Of a stretch of DNA of 64,000 nucleotides, positions 22,628-57,127 are shown one piece after another (within the stretch, counting starts at the first letter, position 1; each line of letters opens with the position of its first letter). The notes below the pieces were generated by a model. It ran no database searches. It was not told the DNA's origin and was given only the letters and a program-made list of their open reading frames with translations. The stretch is from positions 620,001-684,000 of the forward strand of contig NZ_CP114780.1 in assembly GCF_027359415.1 (NCBI RefSeq), read 5' to 3'. This DNA is from Prochlorococcus marinus str. MIT 0918. Its GTDB lineage: Bacteria > Cyanobacteriota > Cyanobacteriia > PCC-6307 > Cyanobiaceae. Both the position numbers and the translations under genes were made by a program.

Positions 22628-23791
22628 ATGAATCTGCCATTCCTCCCATACGGACGTCAAAATATTAGTCAAGATGATATTGATAGTGTTATTAGGGTTT
22701 TAAAAAGCGATTACCTGACACAAGGGCCAATTACTGGGGAGTTCGAAAAAGAAGCATCACTCAAAGTATCTTGTAAATATGTTGTTTCCGTTAATAGTGG
22801 CACAAGTGCTCTTCATATAGCCTGCTTAGCCTTAGATCTAAATCCAGGAGATATTCTTTGGACAACCCCTATCACATTTGTAGCTTCAGCTAATTGTGCC
22901 AGATATTGTGGTGCTGAGATTGATTTTGTTGATATTGACCCAAAAACAGGTCTTATGTCTACAGATGAGCTTGAGAAAAAACTAAAAGAAGCTGAAAAAC
23001 AAGACCAATTACCAAAAATAGTGATCCCTGTTCATCTAGCTGGAACTAGTTGTGACATGCAAACTATTTATAAACTTTCTAAGGAATATGGTTTTTCTAT
23101 CATTGAAGATGCAAGTCACGCAATAGGAGGTTTTTATAAGGAATATCCTGTAGGAAGTTGTAAATTCAGTAATATCACTGTTTTCAGCTTGCATCCAGTA
23201 AAAATAATTACTAGTGCAGAAGGTGGGCTTGCTACGACTAATGATAGTCTTCTTGCTAAAAAATTAAGACTCTTAAGTAGTCATGGTATTGTCAAAAATA
23301 AAAATGATTTCATCAATAAAAAAGCTAATAGTTGGTTCTATGAGCAACAATTATTAGGTTTCAATTATAGAATGACTGATGTATTAGCAGCGTTAGGTCT
23401 AAGTCAACTTAAGAGGCTAGATTATTTTATTTCAGAAAGACAAAGTATTTTTAAAAGTTATAAGAATATCTTTTCAGATTTACCATTATATTTTCTAGAG
23501 GTGCCAGACAATATTAAGTCTTCTCATCATCTAGCTATTATTAGATTAAATAATAAAAATCAAGAATACCATAGAAAAGTCTTTGATGGAATGCGCTCAA
23601 AGAATATTGGTGTACAGCTTCATTACACACCTGTACATCTTCAACCTTATTATAAAGAATATGGGTTTAGGAATGGACTTTTTCCAAAAGCAGAACAATA
23701 CTCAAGCAATGCCATGTCGCTTCCAATATTTCCTGGATTAAGTGATAATGAGTTAAAGCGTATTTATAATGATTTAAGCTCATTATTGTAG
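22628..23791 (+). CDS. pseC: UDP-4-keto-6-deoxy sugar aminotransferase, PseC-like
   Basis: PLP-dependent aminotransferase of the DegT/DnrJ/EryC1 family (387 residues). It begins with PFLPYGRQNISQDDIDSV and has NSGTSALHIACLAL, PITFVASANCARYCGA and IIEDASHAIGG, with the PLP lysine at about residue 192 (SLHPVKIITSAEGG). This sequence type is closest to PseC, which makes UDP-4-amino-4,6-dideoxy-N-acetyl-L-altrosamine in pseudaminic acid synthesis. PseB is not in the window. It stands with pseI and a PseH-like gene in the same island. Confidence 0.85.
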   Translation: MNLPFLPYGRQNISQDDIDSVIRVLKSDYLTQGPITGEFEKEASLKVSCKYVVSVNSGTSALHIACLALDLNPGDILWTTPITFVASANCARYCGAEIDFVDIDPKTGLMSTDELEKKLKEAEKQDQLPKIVIPVHLAGTSCDMQTIYKLSKEYGFSIIEDASHAIGGFYKEYPVGSCKFSNITVFSLHPVKIITSAEGGLATTNDSLLAKKLRLLSSHGIVKNKNDFINKKANSWFYEQQLLGFNYRMTDVLAALGLSQLKRLDYFISERQSIFKSYKNIFSDLPLYFLEVPDNIKSSHHLAIIRLNNKNQEYHRKVFDGMRSKNIGVQLHYTPVHLQPYYKEYGFRNGLFPKAEQYSSNAMSLPIFPGLSDNELKRIYNDLSSLL

Positions 23792-25469: not shown

Positions 25470-26549
25470 ATGACTAGAATTAATAGTTCTATTATTGAAA
25501 TAGATGGAAAGAAAATAGGAGAAGGCAATAAACCATATATAGTTGCAGAAATGTCAGGCAACCATAATGGCAGTATAAAAAATGCTCTTAAAATAATAAA
25601 GACTGCTAATGAATGTGGTGCTGATGCTGTAAAGATTCAAACTTATACTCCAGACACTATTACAATTAATCATAATGGACCTGAATTTATAATAAAAGAT
25701 GGCTTATGGGAAGGGAGAAAATTATATGAACTTTATGAAGAAGCTCATACTCCATGGGAATGGCATCAAGAGATGTTTGAATATGCTAAAAAAATAGGAA
25801 TCACTTTATTTTCTTCTCCTTTCGATTACACAGCTGTAAATCTACTTGAATCCCTCAATAATCCTATATATAAAATAGCCTCACCGGAAATAATAGATTT
25901 GGAGCTTATCAAAAAAATGGCAAAGACGAAAAAACCTCTTATAATTTCAACTGGTATGGCAACTCTATTTGAAATAGAAGAAGCGATTAAAACTGCTAAT
26001 TTAGAGGGTGCTAATCAAATAGTGGTTCTTCATTGTACATCTTCTTACCCAGCTCCTATTAAAGAGGCCAACCTGTCTACAATATGTGAAATTAGAGAAA
26101 AGTTTAATGTTATTACAGGTCTATCTGATCATACAAAAGGTACATTTATACCAACATTAGCAATCGCTTTAGGCGCTTCTGTTATAGAAAAACATTTTAC
26201 ACTTGATCGTTCTAAAGGAGGAGTGGATAGTGAATTCTCAATAGAACCTAAAGAATTAGAAAAACTAGTACAAGATTGCGAGTCAGCAAATATTGCCAAA
26301 GGAACTCCGGCATTCAAACCTACAGATTCAGAATCAATTGTATTAAAAAACAGAAGATCAATTTATGTTGTTAAAAAAATAAATAAAGGTGAGTTGATAA
26401 CAACTGATAATGTTAGATCAATAAGACCAGGCAAAGGCTTATTACCTAAATATATAAACAAAATAATTGGGCACAGAGCGTCAAGAGATATAGAATATGG
26501 GGAGGCATTTGAGCTAAGTATGATTATGGGGGAAGTATCATTAGATTAA
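25470..26549 (+). CDS. pseI: pseudaminic acid synthase
   Basis: NeuB/PseI family (359 residues): condenses phosphoenolpyruvate with a 6-deoxy hexosamine to a nonulosonic acid. The N-terminal TIM barrel has YIVAEMSGNHNGSIKNALKI, GADAVKIQTYTPDTIT, FSSPFDYTAVNLLE, STGMAT, HCTSSYPAP and GLSDHT. The C-terminal antifreeze-like SAF domain has NRRSIYVVKKINKGELITTDNVRSIRPGKGL. The MSGNHNGS variant and the TYTPDTIT loop favour PseI over NeuB. A PseH-like acetyltransferase follows at 7 bp. Confidence 0.9.
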   Translation: MTRINSSIIEIDGKKIGEGNKPYIVAEMSGNHNGSIKNALKIIKTANECGADAVKIQTYTPDTITINHNGPEFIIKDGLWEGRKLYELYEEAHTPWEWHQEMFEYAKKIGITLFSSPFDYTAVNLLESLNNPIYKIASPEIIDLELIKKMAKTKKPLIISTGMATLFEIEEAIKTANLEGANQIVVLHCTSSYPAPIKEANLSTICEIREKFNVITGLSDHTKGTFIPTLAIALGASVIEKHFTLDRSKGGVDSEFSIEPKELEKLVQDCESANIAKGTPAFKPTDSESIVLKNRRSIYVVKKINKGELITTDNVRSIRPGKGLLPKYINKIIGHRASRDIEYGEAFELSMIMGEVSLD

Positions 26550-26556
26550 TTATCAA

Positions 26557-27024
26557 ATGAAACTATCTAAATTAAATAACTCTCATAAGAAAGAAGTTTG
26601 GGAATGGAGAAATGAGATTTTAACTAGAAGGATGTCTAAAAATACTGAGGCAATCGACTGGAATGAACATTCGCAATGGTTTAAAAATGCTCTCATTGAT
26701 AAGAATAAAATAATATATATTGGAGAATTGAATAATAAATCAATGGGAATTGTTCGTTTTGAAAAAGAAGACTCTAATCAAAGTACCTATACAATAAGTA
26801 TAACTATTGCACCTGTTTACAGAGGGAAAGGCTATGCAGAGATTTTACTTAAAAAAGCAGTGAAAAGATTAGCAGAAGAAGTTGGGGATATAAAACTTAT
26901 AATTGCAGAAATAAAAAAAGAAAATGTTAAAAGCATAAGTCTTTTCAAAAAATGCTATTTCAAACTACATAAAACTGAGCAGAATATAAATAAGTATATT
27001 TTAGAAAATATTAAATGTAATTAA
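26557..27024 (+). CDS. pseH: GNAT acetyltransferase, PseH-like
   Basis: A 155-residue GNAT protein. The acetyl-CoA loop motif is IAPVYRGKGYAEILLKKAV, and the start region has EVWEWRNEILTRRMS, typical of PseH and of sugar N-acetyltransferases beside PseG. It probably acetylates the 4-amino group of the PseC product. It lies 7 bp after pseI, so the two are co-transcribed. Specificity rests on context. Confidence 0.78.
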   Translation: MKLSKLNNSHKKEVWEWRNEILTRRMSKNTEAIDWNEHSQWFKNALIDKNKIIYIGELNNKSMGIVRFEKEDSNQSTYTISITIAPVYRGKGYAEILLKKAVKRLAEEVGDIKLIIAEIKKENVKSISLFKKCYFKLHKTEQNINKYILENIKCN

Positions 27025-27062: not shown

Positions 27063-28238
27063 CTAAGGCAGATTAAGTTCCTTCTTGGCCTTAATCTGAT
27101 TTATATAAGCCCAACTAGATAATAATAAGTACTCATTTTTCATATTATAATCTTCTGGTTTATCTATAAATCCCATTCCACCTGTGATTATAGACTCTAA
27201 ATTTATCGTACCATTTAAAATATCATTCCATATATTAGCTGGAGCATATAAGAATATAGTATCTTTTTTCTTTTTAATATCATCAATTAATCTAAATTCA
27301 ACGTTCAAAGTCCTAGCGGTTTTAGAATCTTTATATTTCGAATATAATTGCTGAAATTTTCTTAGTCTAGCCTGGATTATTGATTCTTGGCTTCCATCAG
27401 CAATTATATGTTGCCCATTTATAATTTGATCTGAAGGGTACAACTGTTTTATATGTTTTGAGTATTTATTAATAATTTGATCTCTAAGTAAATACGGATC
27501 AAAGTCTAAATCATCAATTAGAAAATCGTTTGTAAATCTACTTTGGTTTGCATATGCATAACCGGTCTTAATTCCAAATTTAGAACAATTAGATATTAAA
27601 GACTCACACATATATTCTATTTTACTAGAAATTATATCTTTTTTCTTAGATGAGGGGAAACCCTTATAAAATAGGGGATAAGAATCTGCTAAGCCAACCT
27701 GAGCCATCAATACAATATTACTTGATCTACTAATAGAGATTTTTTCCTTAATATAATCTTTCGTTGTTTCAGAAAATTCTCGCCAATTATCATTAGCATG
27801 TATAAAAAAAGAGTCTCCACAAGAAATAGTAAATATAAAGTCTTCTTTACTTAAAGAGCCATCAAAAAAAGATGAAATGAAATAGTTCCCTATGCTAACA
27901 CCCTTATCATCAACTTCAATTATACATTCTTCATCTATTCCAGAATTTAAAACTCTGTTTACAAAGCTATGGTTTCTAATCTTTGGAATTATAACCTTCG
28001 TTTCTCTTAAAAGTTGAGAAAGGAAAATATCATCAACATGGTCATCATGTGCATGTGAAAGAACTACAAGAGATAACTTGCCTGATGAAGGTAAAATCTT
28101 TTTAACCGTACATGAGTGTGGATAAGGGGATTGGTACCAGCCATGAAAAGCATTACTGAACATCCAAGGGTCAGTTATCAATAATTGATCATCAGATTCA
28201 CAAATAACACTACTATGGTTTAGATGAGTTAACTTCAT
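27063..28238 (-). CDS. MBL-fold metallohydrolase
   Basis: A 391-residue metallo-beta-lactamase-fold protein starting MKLTHLNHSSVICE. The zinc motif HxHxDH is at residues 62-67 (SHAHDDH). A later HANDNW fits the distal ligands. A long C-terminal part beyond the MBL core has no clear motif. The longer frame to 28352 would overlap the upstream gene and add a foreign N-terminus; ATG at 28238 lies next to that gene's stop. UlaG-like or CMP-sialic-acid-hydroxylase-like MBL proteins occur beside nonulosonic acid genes, but a sugar substrate is only inferred. Confidence 0.8.
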   Translation of the reverse strand: MKLTHLNHSSVICESDDQLLITDPWMFSNAFHGWYQSPYPHSCTVKKILPSSGKLSLVVLSHAHDDHVDDIFLSQLLRETKVIIPKIRNHSFVNRVLNSGIDEECIIEVDDKGVSIGNYFISSFFDGSLSKEDFIFTISCGDSFFIHANDNWREFSETTKDYIKEKISISRSSNIVLMAQVGLADSYPLFYKGFPSSKKKDIISSKIEYMCESLISNCSKFGIKTGYAYANQSRFTNDFLIDDLDFDPYLLRDQIINKYSKHIKQLYPSDQIINGQHIIADGSQESIIQARLRKFQQLYSKYKDSKTARTLNVEFRLIDDIKKKKDTIFLYAPANIWNDILNGTINLESIITGGMGFIDKPEDYNMKNEYLLLSSWAYINQIKAKKELNLP

Positions 28239-28239
28239 A

Positions 28240-29247
28240 TTAGTTCTTATTATAAAGAAGATGATTAATCTTAAGAAATTTAGATGCGCATAATTGTTTA
28301 GGATTATAGTTTTTAAATTGTTTTCTAAATAATTTAATAGACTTTTCTTCATTATTATTTATCTTGATTTTATCCATTTCTGCCATATCATCTAATTCCG
28401 AAGTCGCACAAAAAGAAAGCTTAAATCTCGAATCAAATATTTTCTTAAAAATAACTTTAGATCTTTTCAAATGCCAATCAGATGTTACGACACATACATG
28501 TTTAGTAAAGCCAATAAAGTTGAGAAGTTCATAAGAGAAGACAGCATCACCAACAGTATCTAATGATCTCTTTTCAAGAACATACTGCTCAGGAATAAAA
28601 TAATTATCAGAAAAATATTTAAACATACATTCTGATATTGATAACTTACATTTACCTTGTAGTCTGCCTAATCCCATAAAAAACACGCAATATTTTTTAG
28701 TTAGTGATGATTTTATTTGTTGAGCAAGTACTTTACACCGATTTTTACCAGAAGTTGATAATTCAAATGTTTTTTGATCTATTTCATGACCAAGAATTAT
28801 ATAGCAAAGATCCTTTTCAACAACTTGATTGCCAAGATCATTAGAAATGTCTCTGAATTCTATAAGCTCCGCAATAATTTTCTCTTTTATATTGGCGAGA
28901 TTTTTTACAGGGTTTATAGAATTATTTGAACAAATCAATTGTGATTTTCGCTTAACCTTTAACGATAATTTATTAAGCCTTGGATCAATTCCCTCCTTCC
29001 TAAGAACATCTAATCTATCTTTCTCTTCTTGAGCATTTTTGATTGTCCATTGACCATCTGAATTTCCATATGGTCCAATTTGATACCATCTTTGTTGCCC
29101 CTTCCTCCCAGAAGGAAAATGATATTTCCATAGTAGATATTTACCACCATTAGGGTAAACTTCAACATAGATTCCATTCCCAACAGAAACTTTATACCTC
29201 CTATTCTTAGCTTTTAATTCTCTAAGATCCCTATCCCTCAGAGACAT
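28240..29247 (-). CDS. integrase arm-binding domain fused to DUF218 domain
   Basis: A 335-residue chimera. Residues 1-90 match the arm-type DNA-binding domain at the N-terminus of phage/island tyrosine recombinases (DUF4102-like): LRDRDLRELKAKNRRYKV, GNGIYVEVYPNGGKYLL, IGPYG, and the exit LRKEGIDPR. No core-binding or catalytic R-H-R-Y part follows. After a 55-residue linker, residues ~146-320 match DUF218/YdcF-like proteins: CYIILGHEI, STSGKNRC, RSLDTVGDAVFS, VTSDWHLKRSKVIF. DUF218 members act in envelope metabolism. The frame is open throughout with no stop. Two repeats (29253-29287) lie just upstream. Confidence 0.8.
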   Translation of the reverse strand: MSLRDRDLRELKAKNRRYKVSVGNGIYVEVYPNGGKYLLWKYHFPSGRKGQQRWYQIGPYGNSDGQWTIKNAQEEKDRLDVLRKEGIDPRLNKLSLKVKRKSQLICSNNSINPVKNLANIKEKIIAELIEFRDISNDLGNQVVEKDLCYIILGHEIDQKTFELSTSGKNRCKVLAQQIKSSLTKKYCVFFMGLGRLQGKCKLSISECMFKYFSDNYFIPEQYVLEKRSLDTVGDAVFSYELLNFIGFTKHVCVVTSDWHLKRSKVIFKKIFDSRFKLSFCATSELDDMAEMDKIKINNNEEKSIKLFRKQFKNYNPKQLCASKFLKINHLLYNKN

Positions 29248-29252
29248 TTAAA

Positions 29253-29287
29253 AATACCCTACAACCTTTCCTCTTATACCCTACAAC
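29253..29287 (+). repeat. two TACCCTACAAC direct repeats upstream of integrase-like gene
   Basis: TACCCTACAAC occurs at 29255-29265 and 29277-29287, 22 bp apart (two helical turns). They start 6 bp before the ATG of the integrase-arm chimera, on its 5' side. The second copy extends to TATACCCTACAAC, which differs from the repeats at 31018-31070 by two transitions only. They are candidate arm-type binding sites for the integrase N-terminal domain. Confidence 0.7.
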
Positions 29288-29424: not shown

Positions 29425-29622
29425 ATGGCAAAGAAAGGTACCAGGATAGTAGTCACCATAGAGTGTACTGAGTGTCGTACAGCTCCAGCTTCAGAAAAGC
29501 GCTCTCCTGGAGTTTCAAGATACACCACCGAAAAGAATCGGAGAAACACAACTGAAAGGTTAGAACTTAAAAAGTTCTGTCCTCAACTCAATAAGATGAC
29601 CATCCATAAAGAAATTAAATAA
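29425..29622 (+). CDS. rpmG: ribosomal protein bL33
   Basis: Large-subunit ribosomal protein bL33, 65 residues, beginning [17 protein letters not shown] and ending [10 protein letters not shown]. The zinc-ribbon has CTEC intact, but the second pair is reduced to one Cys (KKFCPQLNK), so zinc binding is doubtful. In picocyanobacteria rpmG usually stands next to rpsR; no rpsR follows here. Either gene order has been broken by rearrangement or this is an extra copy. Confidence 0.95.
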
Positions 29623-30113: not shown

Positions 30114-30647
30114 ATGTCAATAATTACAATTATCCTGAAAAGATTAAGTATATTTAATAAAAACAAAATAAGTATAATATTGCTATTTCCACTATTAGTT
30201 GGGTGCGCAAAAAATGCAGAAACGTTAAAACAAGAAGAGCCAGCTGAGCCAATTCTTCAGCCTATCTCTTCTCTTCCATATGAGGCACAAGTCTTGCTAA
30301 ATCCTAAACTTTTACAAAAGGAACTTAAAAGTTGTAAAGAGACAGGCGGTGGGTGGAAAACAAATTATGGAAGTTGGCACAAATTAGAAGGCTGCAAATT
30401 TACTTTCTCAAAAAATCTTCCTAAGATAGAAAAAATATCAATACATAAGTCACCTAATGGAGACATAAATGCATACCAATTCATTAGCGTTAATAAAGAA
30501 ACTCTAAGAGAATTTCAATTCAGATACATTGAAGGAATAATGGAAAATAATACTCAATATTGTGCTCGTTTTGGTGAAAATTCACTTCCAATTTTTAAAA
30601 TAGTAAAGAAAGATTTATGCACCGCACTTATATACAAGCAATTTTAG
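30114..30647 (+). CDS. hypothetical lipoprotein
   Basis: A 177-residue protein with a basic N-terminus, hydrophobic stretch IISIILLFPLL-type and lipobox LVGC (Cys at about residue 31), so it is probably lipid-anchored in the periplasm. The mature part is short and has four further cysteines, including KSCKETGGGW and EGCKF, which could pair in disulfides. No family recognised. It stands alone between rpmG and tRNA-Ser, in DNA that looks transferred or rearranged, with CTAG repeats in front. Confidence 0.65.
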   Translation: MSIITIILKRLSIFNKNKISIILLFPLLVGCAKNAETLKQEEPAEPILQPISSLPYEAQVLLNPKLLQKELKSCKETGGGWKTNYGSWHKLEGCKFTFSKNLPKIEKISIHKSPNGDINAYQFISVNKETLREFQFRYIEGIMENNTQYCARFGENSLPIFKIVKKDLCTALIYKQF

Positions 30648-31017: not shown

Positions 31018-31070
31018 TATATCCCACAACACACGATTCCATCCCACAACATTTTGGTATATCCCACAAC
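31018..31070 (+). repeat. three TATATCCCACAAC-type repeats at 20-bp period
   Basis: TATATCCCACAAC at 31018-31030 and an identical copy at 31058-31070 flank a middle copy (TCCATCCCACAAC, 31038-31050). The 10-bp core ATCCCACAAC recurs every 20 bp exactly. A degenerate fourth copy ends ACAAC at 31089. The cluster begins 113 bp beyond the 3' end of tRNA-Ser. It matches the 29253-29287 repeats in the same orientation. The phase suggests cooperative protein binding on one DNA face. Confidence 0.75.
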
Positions 31071-31182
31071 AAATTCCACTACATACAACAAATGGACCCA
31101 ATAATCCACTTCATTAAAATTCTCCAGATCGATTTCATAGACTAGTGTTTTTAAACATTGTATGGACACATGTCTATGGAAA

Positions 31183-31267
31183 CGGAGAGGGTGGGATTCG
31201 AACCCACGGACAGTTTCCTGTCAAACGATTTCGAGTCGTTCGCTTTAGACCACTCAGCCACCCCTCC
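31183..31267 (-). tRNA. trnS: tRNA-Ser(CGA)
   Basis: An 85-nt class II tRNA with a 7-bp acceptor stem GGAGGGG/CCTCTCC (one G-U), D-loop TGGCTGAGTGGTCTAAAGC, anticodon stem ACGA/TCGT around CTCGAAA (anticodon CGA), a long variable arm, and T-loop GGTTCGAATCC. No CCA is encoded. It lies next to the repeat cluster and island remnants, and is a likely historical integration site. Confidence 0.95.
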
Positions 31268-35376: not shown

Positions 35377-36252
35377 TTATTTATTGTGATTTAAAAGGGG
35401 GAATCCCATTTCTTTCCTTTCTTCCATCCATTGCTGGGCTACATCTCTCGCTAAATTTCTAATGCGTGCAATTGTAGAGGTCCTTTCAGTAACTGAAATA
35501 ACACCTCTTGCTTCTAAAAGATTAAAAGTATGGCTGCATTTAAGTACAAAGTCTAATGCAGGTGCTGGAAGCTTTTTTGATATTAAAGACTTAGCTTCCT
35601 CTTCATAAAGGTCAAATAACTTTATTAAACGATTGGGATCTGAATCTTCAAAATTATATTTGCTATTTGCCTTCTCAAAAGGCAACCATATATCACCATA
35701 TTTATAACGATCATTCCAATTTAAATCCCAAATGCTTTCTACATTTTGAAGGTACATAGCAATTCTTTCTAAACCATAGGTAATTTCAATAGATACTGGT
35801 CGACAATCTAATCCGCCGCATTGTTGAAAATAAGTAAATTGAGTAACTTCCATACCATCAAGCCAAACTTCCCAGCCCACTCCCCATGCACCAAGGGTTG
35901 GGGATTCCCAATTATCTTCTACAAAGCGAATGTCATGTTCCTTTTGATTTATCCCTAACGCTGCTAATGAAGATAAATATAACTCTTGTATCTGAGCAGG
36001 AGAAGGCTTAATTAAAACTTGATATTGATAATAATGCTGAGCTCTATTTGGATTATCTCCATATCTTCCATCCGTTGGCCGTCTACAAGGCTCTGGATAT
36101 GCAACCGCCCAAGGTTCGGGGCCAATTGCCCTCAAAACAGTATGTGGACTCATTGTTCCAGCTCCCTTCTCAGTGTCATAAGGTTGCAATAAAAGACAAC
36201 CTTCTTTTTTCCAAAAAATATTTAATTCTGAAATAATGTCCTCAAAAAACAT
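35377..36252 (-). CDS. glyQ: glycyl-tRNA synthetase alpha chain
   Basis: Alpha subunit of the bacterial alpha2beta2 glycyl-tRNA synthetase (291 residues). Class II signatures are clear: [70 protein letters not shown] and [22 protein letters not shown]. The beta subunit gene glyS is not in the window, as often in cyanobacteria. It follows the porin region on the same strand. Confidence 0.97.
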
Positions 36253-57060: not shown

Positions 57061-57127
57061 AAAAAATAACTATGCAATTAACCAAACTTACTTGGCCATG
57101 ACTCTCAATTAGTAGAATGTGAAGAAT

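Follow-up and report, generated by a model that had tools for sequence, protein, structure and literature searches.

An integrase arm domain joined in frame to a DUF218 domain near a tRNA-Ser(CGA) gene in Prochlorococcus marinus MIT 0918

Introduction

One reading frame of Prochlorococcus marinus MIT 0918 begins like a tyrosine recombinase and ends as a DUF218 protein, which raises the question of how the DNA-binding arm of an integrase came to head such a gene and what it might do there. We analysed the frame within a window of 64,000 nt (NZ_CP114780.1, positions 620,001-684,000, forward strand), to which all coordinates refer unless another locus is named. Comparisons drew on 400 genomes of the family, evenly drawn from a larger group (251 at least 90% complete, many incomplete). 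The features on which the argument rests are collected in Table 1.

Results

Two domains share one open frame

The chimera is a single frame of 335 aa on the minus strand, with its ATG at 29247 and its stop codon at 28240, and a sequence-only reading that had seen both halves in one uninterrupted frame from an ATG was correct. Pfam places Arm-DNA-bind_3 (PF13356) at residues 3-93 (42.1 bits, cut-off 27) and DUF218 (PF02698) at residues 150-270 (48.3 bits, cut-off 27.6); when each half is searched on its own, the scores are 45.8 and 48.5 bits. The alignment of the closest DUF218 homologue begins at residue 146, which refines the start of that domain. Since no other Pfam family matches up to E 1, the chimera is without an integrase core-binding or catalytic domain, as the same reading had claimed, and with residues 146-335 being DUF218 it is by domain content not a tyrosine integrase. 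The fusion of an integrase arm to DUF218 is real.

All three parts of the frame have a coding character, with frame-0 coding scores of 0.35 for the arm, 0.18 for the linker and 0.19 for DUF218 (real genes, 5-95%: 0.137-0.546; off-frame: -1.6 to -0.44), and a linker of 53 open codons is expected by chance in about 0.7% of cases at the same base composition. AlphaFold2 gives pLDDT values, in blocks of 10 residues, of 85-96 for the arm, below 50 for residues 94-144 and 46-91 for the DUF218 part. Two candidate origins of the linker were rejected. As a leftover of the integrase core-binding domain, residues 94-146 alone score -1.9 bits against the integrase profile, whose alignment to the chimera reaches residue 143; this is no better than shuffles (equalled in 304 of 655 shuffles reported, 1000 made). 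As an out-of-frame piece of PseF, the linker showed no trace in its other two frames by eye.

The only in-frame ATG, GTG or TTG between M1 and residue 188 is the TTG at residue 104, and no ATG between M1 and residue 191 would give the DUF218 domain alone. Because only M1 and, less likely, TTG-104 can start a product with the whole DUF218 domain, the enzyme, if made, most likely bears the arm; arm-less translation could begin at TTG-104.

Table 1. Positions of the features discussed, in window coordinates unless a locus is given.
Feature	Position	Strand	Evidence
Arm DNA-binding domain of P4-type tyrosine integrase, residues 1-93	28969..29247	-	PF13356; identity to L066-L071; fold match
Linker, residues 94-145	28813..28968	-	coding-like, predicted disordered
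DUF218 domain, residues 146-335 and stop codon	28240..28812	-	PF02698; 47% identity to G138 194-aa protein
Candidate arm-type site TTGTAGGGTA, 7 bp ahead of chimera ATG	29255..29264	-	
Candidate arm-type site TTGTAGGGTA, second copy, 22 bp from the first	29277..29286	-	
Three tandem copies of TTGTGGGAT(A/G), 20 bp apart, putative remnant left-end array	31020..31071	-	
tRNA-Ser(CGA), target of related integrases	31183..31267	-	ARAGORN; same tRNA adjoins related integrases
Metallo-beta-lactamase-fold hydrolase	27063..28238	-	Lactamase_B_3 over cut-off; 45% identical neighbour in L062
PseH-like acetyltransferase	26557..27024	+	66.3 bits, under NCBIfam cut-off 93.1
PseI pseudaminic acid synthase	25470..26549	+	TIGR03586, 489 bits, cut-off 340
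PseC aminotransferase	22628..23791	+	TIGR03588, 519 bits, cut-off 423.5
Arm + HTH-like ORF of G231	L099 3093-3542; L144 12090-12536		

The arm half belongs to integrases of a tRNA-Ser hotspot

Residues 1-90 had been read as a tyrosine recombinase arm, and besides the Pfam match the relatives of solved structure agree. At sequence level these are the integrase arm domains 3JU0 and 3JTZ, and the three best fold matches of the predicted chimera model are 3JU0, 3JTZ and 3RMP (TM 0.77, by target length, to 3JU0 and 0.82 to 3JTZ), so that the P4-type arm fold is predicted to be retained. The arm is 32% identical to P4 Int over residues 1-91 and 51-61% identical to the arms of its closest integrases, six tRNA-Ser integrases (L066-L071; that of L066 ends at its contig end). 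The arm half also matches PHROG 3423 (E 2e-11), a family of phage proteins without assigned function whose profile is 157 positions long, a match which hints that phages, too, encode short proteins with an arm domain.

The chimera deviates at 8 of the 33 arm columns that are conserved in at least nine of ten relatives, and S6, P46, L69 and R73 are changed although invariant in all ten. In a leave-one-out control the relatives themselves deviate at 0-2 of 16-18 columns, with the exception of L012 (10 of 26). R73, which 3JU0 keeps, is Q in the chimera; at position 6, 3JTZ has A and the L019 group R, and the L69I change is mild. Silent sites of the arm DNA are near saturation (pS 0.85-0.95), with replacement sites at pN 0.26-0.33 and a GC3 of 0.25 in the chimera against 0.60-0.68 in the arms compared. 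These ratios show long constraint, which may predate the fusion.

The chimera lies 1.9 kb from a tRNA-Ser(CGA) gene. Five of its six closest integrases stand about 185 bp from this tRNA, with glyQ in the neighbourhood, and the sixth (L069) is not beside it and has a core-like CACCCTCTCCG alone at equal distance; in the window, we take the gene at 35377-36252 to be glyQ. Directly 5' of their start codons the five carry three to four copies of a motif of about 10 bp, the last of which ends 7-9 bp ahead of the codon. The motif is element-specific (TGGTAGGGTA, GTGTTAGGTA, GTGTTGGGGTA, TGTTGTGGTA, GTGTTGTTGGA, GTGGTGGTGTA, ACACATGTA and others), with copies spaced by 12, 21-22 and 18-19 bp where there are four and by 12 and 19 bp in one three-copy group, and the last 8-mer of the integrase arrays ends 6-9 bp ahead of the start codon.

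Of 29 loci with an integrase or its remnant, 21 have at least three exact copies of an 8-mer in the 90 nt next to the start (a number reached by none of 200 shuffles at each locus), three (L017, L026, L030) have two copies of the motif, and five (L002, L011, L013, L014, L018) show no repeated motif. The distance from a CTCTCCG core to the start is 181-188 nt in 22 of the 24 loci with a core within 300 nt; neither the array nor the core counts are independent, because several loci are near-copies of one another. As a control, 51 other ORF starts of the window reached a multiplicity of 2 at most, in three cases. The fixed layout with an element-specific motif recurs upstream of integrase starts among the tRNA-Ser integrases of L004-L031.

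Two repeats precede the chimera's own start codon. They have 12 bases exactly in common and are ordinary by the 8-mer test (matched by 17 of 200 shuffles); the TTGTGGGAT(A/G) array, 111 bp from the 3' end of the tRNA-Ser gene, differs from them at 2 of 10 positions. Across the 1.79 Mb of the genome, these two arrays are the only exact matches to the pair TTGTRGGRTA, 5-15 nt, TTGTRGGRT (reversed control 0), a result that bears on uniqueness, not on discovery, because the pattern was taken from the arrays with zero mismatches, and a looser single motif with two mismatches stays at chance level in the window (17 versus 15.0). From their position and the integrase family we infer that the repeats are candidate arm-type sites. 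Another family genome (G013) contains a sequence 91% identical to window 31061-31267. The 64-kb window has one copy of the tRNA 3' end, and neither a second att repeat nor a displaced copy of that end was found in it. A scan for a consensus promoter just upstream of the chimera ATG found none but is uninformative, as it returned fewer sites than shuffles.

Between the tRNA and the chimera lie two further frames. The one at 29425-29622 we take to be rpmG (ribosomal protein bL33); it is the sole rpmG match of the genome. An rpmG gene is also found in the tRNA-Ser hotspot of G013 and, 6.2 kb off, in that of G002 (L060 1-850; L061 8827-9021). In G013 repeats flank it on either side; by eye, they consist of a motif pair, about 75 bp of shared sequence and a CCTCTCC core, as if rpmG were the cargo of a tiny element. 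The other frame (30114-30647) looks lipoprotein-like by eye, and a 34% identical relative (L072 11754-12215) is located about 3.8 kb from tRNA-Ser in G001.

The DUF218 half has stand-alone relatives in pseudaminic-acid clusters

The remainder of the frame had been called DUF218-like, and the Pfam match of 48.3 bits exceeds the 38.2 bits of its nearest homologue, a stand-alone 194-aa protein of G138 (47% identity). The DUF218 genes of G138, G067 and G039 all stand alone and encode 192-194 aa. In G138 the gene begins right after the PseF stop and directly before the same hydrolase gene, in an order that we take to be PseB-PseC-PseF-DUF218-hydrolase-PseH-like on one strand with PseI opposite (the names PseB and PseF are based on position and, for PseF, a Pfam cytidylyltransferase match). 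The hydrolase ATG of MIT 0918 follows 1 nt past the chimera stop, in the gene order of G138. PseC and PseI lie near the chimera, both above their cut-offs, as expected of a pseudaminic-acid cluster; PseB and PseF were not recognised by eye among the window ORFs, and PseG (TIGR03590) has no match in the MIT 0918 genome (E 0.01; E 1e-15).

Among 26 loci of DUF218 relatives (L110-L135), 18 have relatives of PseB, PseC, PseF or PseI in flanks of up to 6 kb (named genomes searched). The eight others comprise five with a shortened flank and three with full flanks (L125, L126, L132), and an arm domain was found in none of the 26 at E 1e-4. Judged by homology and neighbourhood, the DUF218 half derives from a cargo gene, probably part of a pseudaminic-acid operon, and its subgroup of DUF218 is linked to such clusters. 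In the literature searched, no paper mentions both DUF218 and pseudaminic acid. None of the 50 structure matches listed is titled as DUF218, the model confidence of this half is middling, and a PDB profile search returned nothing up to E 1.

PseG over cut-off is absent from 16 of the 18 genomes with DUF218 and Pse genes (MIT 0918 included), and DUF218 may stand in for it. This is a lead only, because PseG is often missing anyway and the family control is not significant: among 360 genomes, 22 of 35 with PseI over cut-off have no PseG over cut-off (hand count), and finding PseG in none of four DUF218 genomes is expected by chance in about 14% of cases (by hand).

The fusion was seen in one genome of 400

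A search with the chimera matched 55 of the 400 family genomes. Besides its own genome, G138, G067 and G039 match the DUF218 half and all others the arm half, the rows that extend beyond residue 143 (L004, L005, L011 and others) being integrases; PF13356 by itself matches 54 of the 400. Arm and DUF218 are joined in the MIT 0918 genome only, one of the 400 (many of them incomplete), and the comparison within the genus proposed by the sequence-only reading found no such fusion elsewhere among 14 Prochlorococcus genomes. In MIT 0918 itself there is no PF13356 arm other than the truncated one of the chimera. Nor did the genome-contig and viral-contig collections searched contain a full-length relative, and the five matches among phage records each cover at most 47% of the chimera. 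Integrase copies are often broken, with stops in seven match rows of the 400-genome search.

In a survey of short arm frames, for which 16 regions were fetched, seven frames were rejected as fusions since integrase similarity persists to the frame end, and L104 because of a frameshift. In L096 and L094 an unexplained tail follows part of a core-binding domain, L107 and L108 are partial arm matches, and L101 has no arm match. This leaves non-integrase arm genes in two genomes, G231 (L099) and G230 (L102/L103).

The G231 ORF (148 aa) consists of an arm and an HTH-like tail (HTH_7 E 0.01, under cut-off), with CACCCTCTCCG upstream and four copies of GTGTTGTGAGG at its start; over 34 aa the tail shares 74% identity with a stretch of a viral contig, and a full-length integrase occupies tRNA-Ser 13 kb away. 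G230 (78% complete, 6% contaminated) encodes a 97-aa arm-only ORF on two contigs, with AAGGAG ahead of the ATG and adjoining an ORF that looks transposase-like by eye; one copy is about 550 bp from tRNA-Ser, without an array. PF13356 misses this ORF, which was assigned because the integrase profile matches it and because it is 67% identical to integrase arms. The arm genes of both genomes could equally be remnants. A decayed integrase arm is found about 4 kb from tRNA-Ser in G012, where the island (L059 9710-15862) also has a degenerate core CCACCCTCTACG and abuts tRNA-Arg(TCT); in the MIT 0918 window tRNA-Arg(TCT) is at 57127, 26 kb off.

Discussion

Origin of the chimera

On balance we lean towards an in-frame deletion by which the integrase was lost and the DUF218-hydrolase pair came to stand behind an integrase leader and start codon. 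An element with a P4-type tyrosine integrase would formerly have occupied tRNA-Ser(CGA), its integrase oriented away from the tRNA and preceded, directly 5' of the start codon, by tandem arm-type sites. The deletion would have removed in frame the core-binding and catalytic parts together with whatever lay between them and the start of a DUF218 gene, which probably came from a pseudaminic-acid operon. Leader, candidate arm sites, start codon and arm domain would now head a DUF218-hydrolase operon, and the arm, if it still binds its own leader, would damp expression such that the product limits its own synthesis.

Because the integrase and the DUF218-hydrolase pair run in the same direction, deletion within the element is the simplest course; rpmG between tRNA and chimera and the two differences between the arrays mean that more than one event is needed. 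We presume deletion as the cause, and the chimeric gene is presumably transcribed and its DUF218 part presumably still at work in the sugar pathway. The fusion frame, its domain content, the repeat layout, the tRNA target and the stand-alone DUF218-hydrolase pair elsewhere are established, while the occurrence in a single genome, the ordinary two-copy array, the eight altered arm columns, the untraced linker, the failure to find a second att repeat in the window and the possible arm-less start at TTG-104 count against this origin. The sequence-only reading had likewise proposed that the 5' end of an integrase gene became fused to a cargo gene by deletion or recombination, and it gains from the ancestor integrase type, tRNA target and array found here and from a cargo that stands alone elsewhere. 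It had also suggested that the cargo may be expressed from the integrase promoter, with which the layout agrees. Its further suggestion of a new DNA-binding protein has the predicted fold and a remaining array in its favour, and against it four altered columns that are invariant in ten relatives, R73 among them.

Self-repression through the candidate sites is plausible by analogy. According to PMC2951348, IntS of KplE1 binds at attL over its own promoter and represses it, the same type of loop is cited for P4 int, and the loop is predicted for two tRNA-linked arrangements, 61.5% of those surveyed, one of which is a tRNA followed by the integrase on the same strand. The ancestral layout at tRNA-Ser(CGA) would fit this type.

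Alternative explanations

A possible but distinctly less probable explanation is that decay of the island at tRNA-Ser produced the fusion incidentally, as a scar on its way to a pseudogene in which the arm half or the whole gene is functionless. The presence of the fusion in one genome only, the frequency of broken integrases (the seven rows with stops and the decayed remnant of G012) and the four changes at columns invariant in ten relatives are what decay would leave behind. It would hardly leave 335 open codons with in-frame codon statistics across all three parts, the high DUF218 profile score or the operon-like 1-nt gap to the hydrolase gene, and the arm's replacement sites have drifted much less than its silent sites, possibly from before the fusion.

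We think it unlikely that the chimera is a selected DNA-binding protein whose arm is retained because it binds the two arrays and so either represses the chimera's operon or blocks integrase action at tRNA-Ser. Such a role would suit two matching arrays with no other exact pair in the genome, an arm fold predicted with high confidence, and the company of the G231 arm-HTH fusion on a four-copy array and the arm-only ORF found twice in G230. Q at position 73, where all ten relatives and 3JU0 have R, speaks against it, as do the 2 of 10 differing array positions and a DUF218 half that looks enzyme-like, not regulator-like. A broader and equally doubtful idea, drawn from the survey, is that integrase arm domains at the tRNA-Ser(CGA) hotspot of marine cyanobacteria have repeatedly been severed just behind the arm and retained to lead new partners as DNA-binding modules (DUF218 in the chimera, an HTH-like tail in G231, none in G230), where they might bind leftover arrays, set cargo output and exclude or lock integrases of the same specificity.

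That the junction is an assembly error, as a fusion seen in a single assembly might suggest, is very improbable given an assembly of one contig (1,789,313 bp, 99.99% complete, 0.06% contaminated) and an open frame whose codon statistics continue through the junction.

Significance

At the level of sequence families, arm-DUF218 is a new domain joining within known families. No title on an integrase arm-DUF218 fusion was among the literature matches listed, nor did those listed include such a title for arm domains, DUF218/YdcF, cyanobacterial pseudaminic acid or picocyanobacterial arm-type sites; the repeat arrays may have been mentioned earlier, in the original tycheposon description. If the in-frame deletion is the right account, the locus would be a mobile island being tamed, its integrase gone and the leader, candidate sites and DNA-binding head retained on a surface-sugar cargo gene. 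The chimera allows a direct test of whether a host gene can be regulated by an orphan arm domain. The array rule and the recurrent arm-only products are the stronger general leads, and the strict layout (four copies 12/21/19 bp apart, with some 8 bp between array and start codon and some 185 bp between start and tRNA) with its variable motif offers a system for the co-evolution of integrases and arm sites.

Comparison with known systems

With the P4-type (CP4/HPI/HAI7) arm domains 3JU0, 3JTZ and 3RMP the chimera shares the family and the predicted fold over residues ~1-94; unlike in P4-type integrases, its arm heads DUF218 without core-binding and catalytic domains. The integrases at tRNA-Ser(CGA) (L066-L071 and relatives) have the same tRNA and the same placement of repeats ahead of the start codon, whereas the chimera stops being an integrase after the arm, has two repeats instead of three or four, and is separated from the tRNA by rpmG and another ORF. 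As in Prochlorococcus tycheposons (PMC10872708), a cargo island lies by a tRNA gene with a trace of a tyrosine recombinase; unlike in those, the genome has no intact recombinase of this arm type (PF13356) and the window no second boundary repeat.

KplE1 intS and P4 int (PMC2951348) resemble the putative ancestor in the order tRNA-then-integrase on the same strand and in candidate arm sites at the start region. For intS repression is reported, for the chimera it would follow by analogy, and the downstream product of the chimera is not an integrase. As to an overlap of sites and promoter of the KplE1 type, the chimera's repeats end 7 bp ahead of its ATG, and no promoter was located. With the DUF218 proteins of pseudaminic-acid clusters, finally, the chimera shares the domain over cut-off and the neighbours PseC, PseI, a PseH-like protein and the metallo-hydrolase; in G138, G067 and G039 DUF218 stands alone, whereas in MIT 0918 it is fused to an integrase arm.
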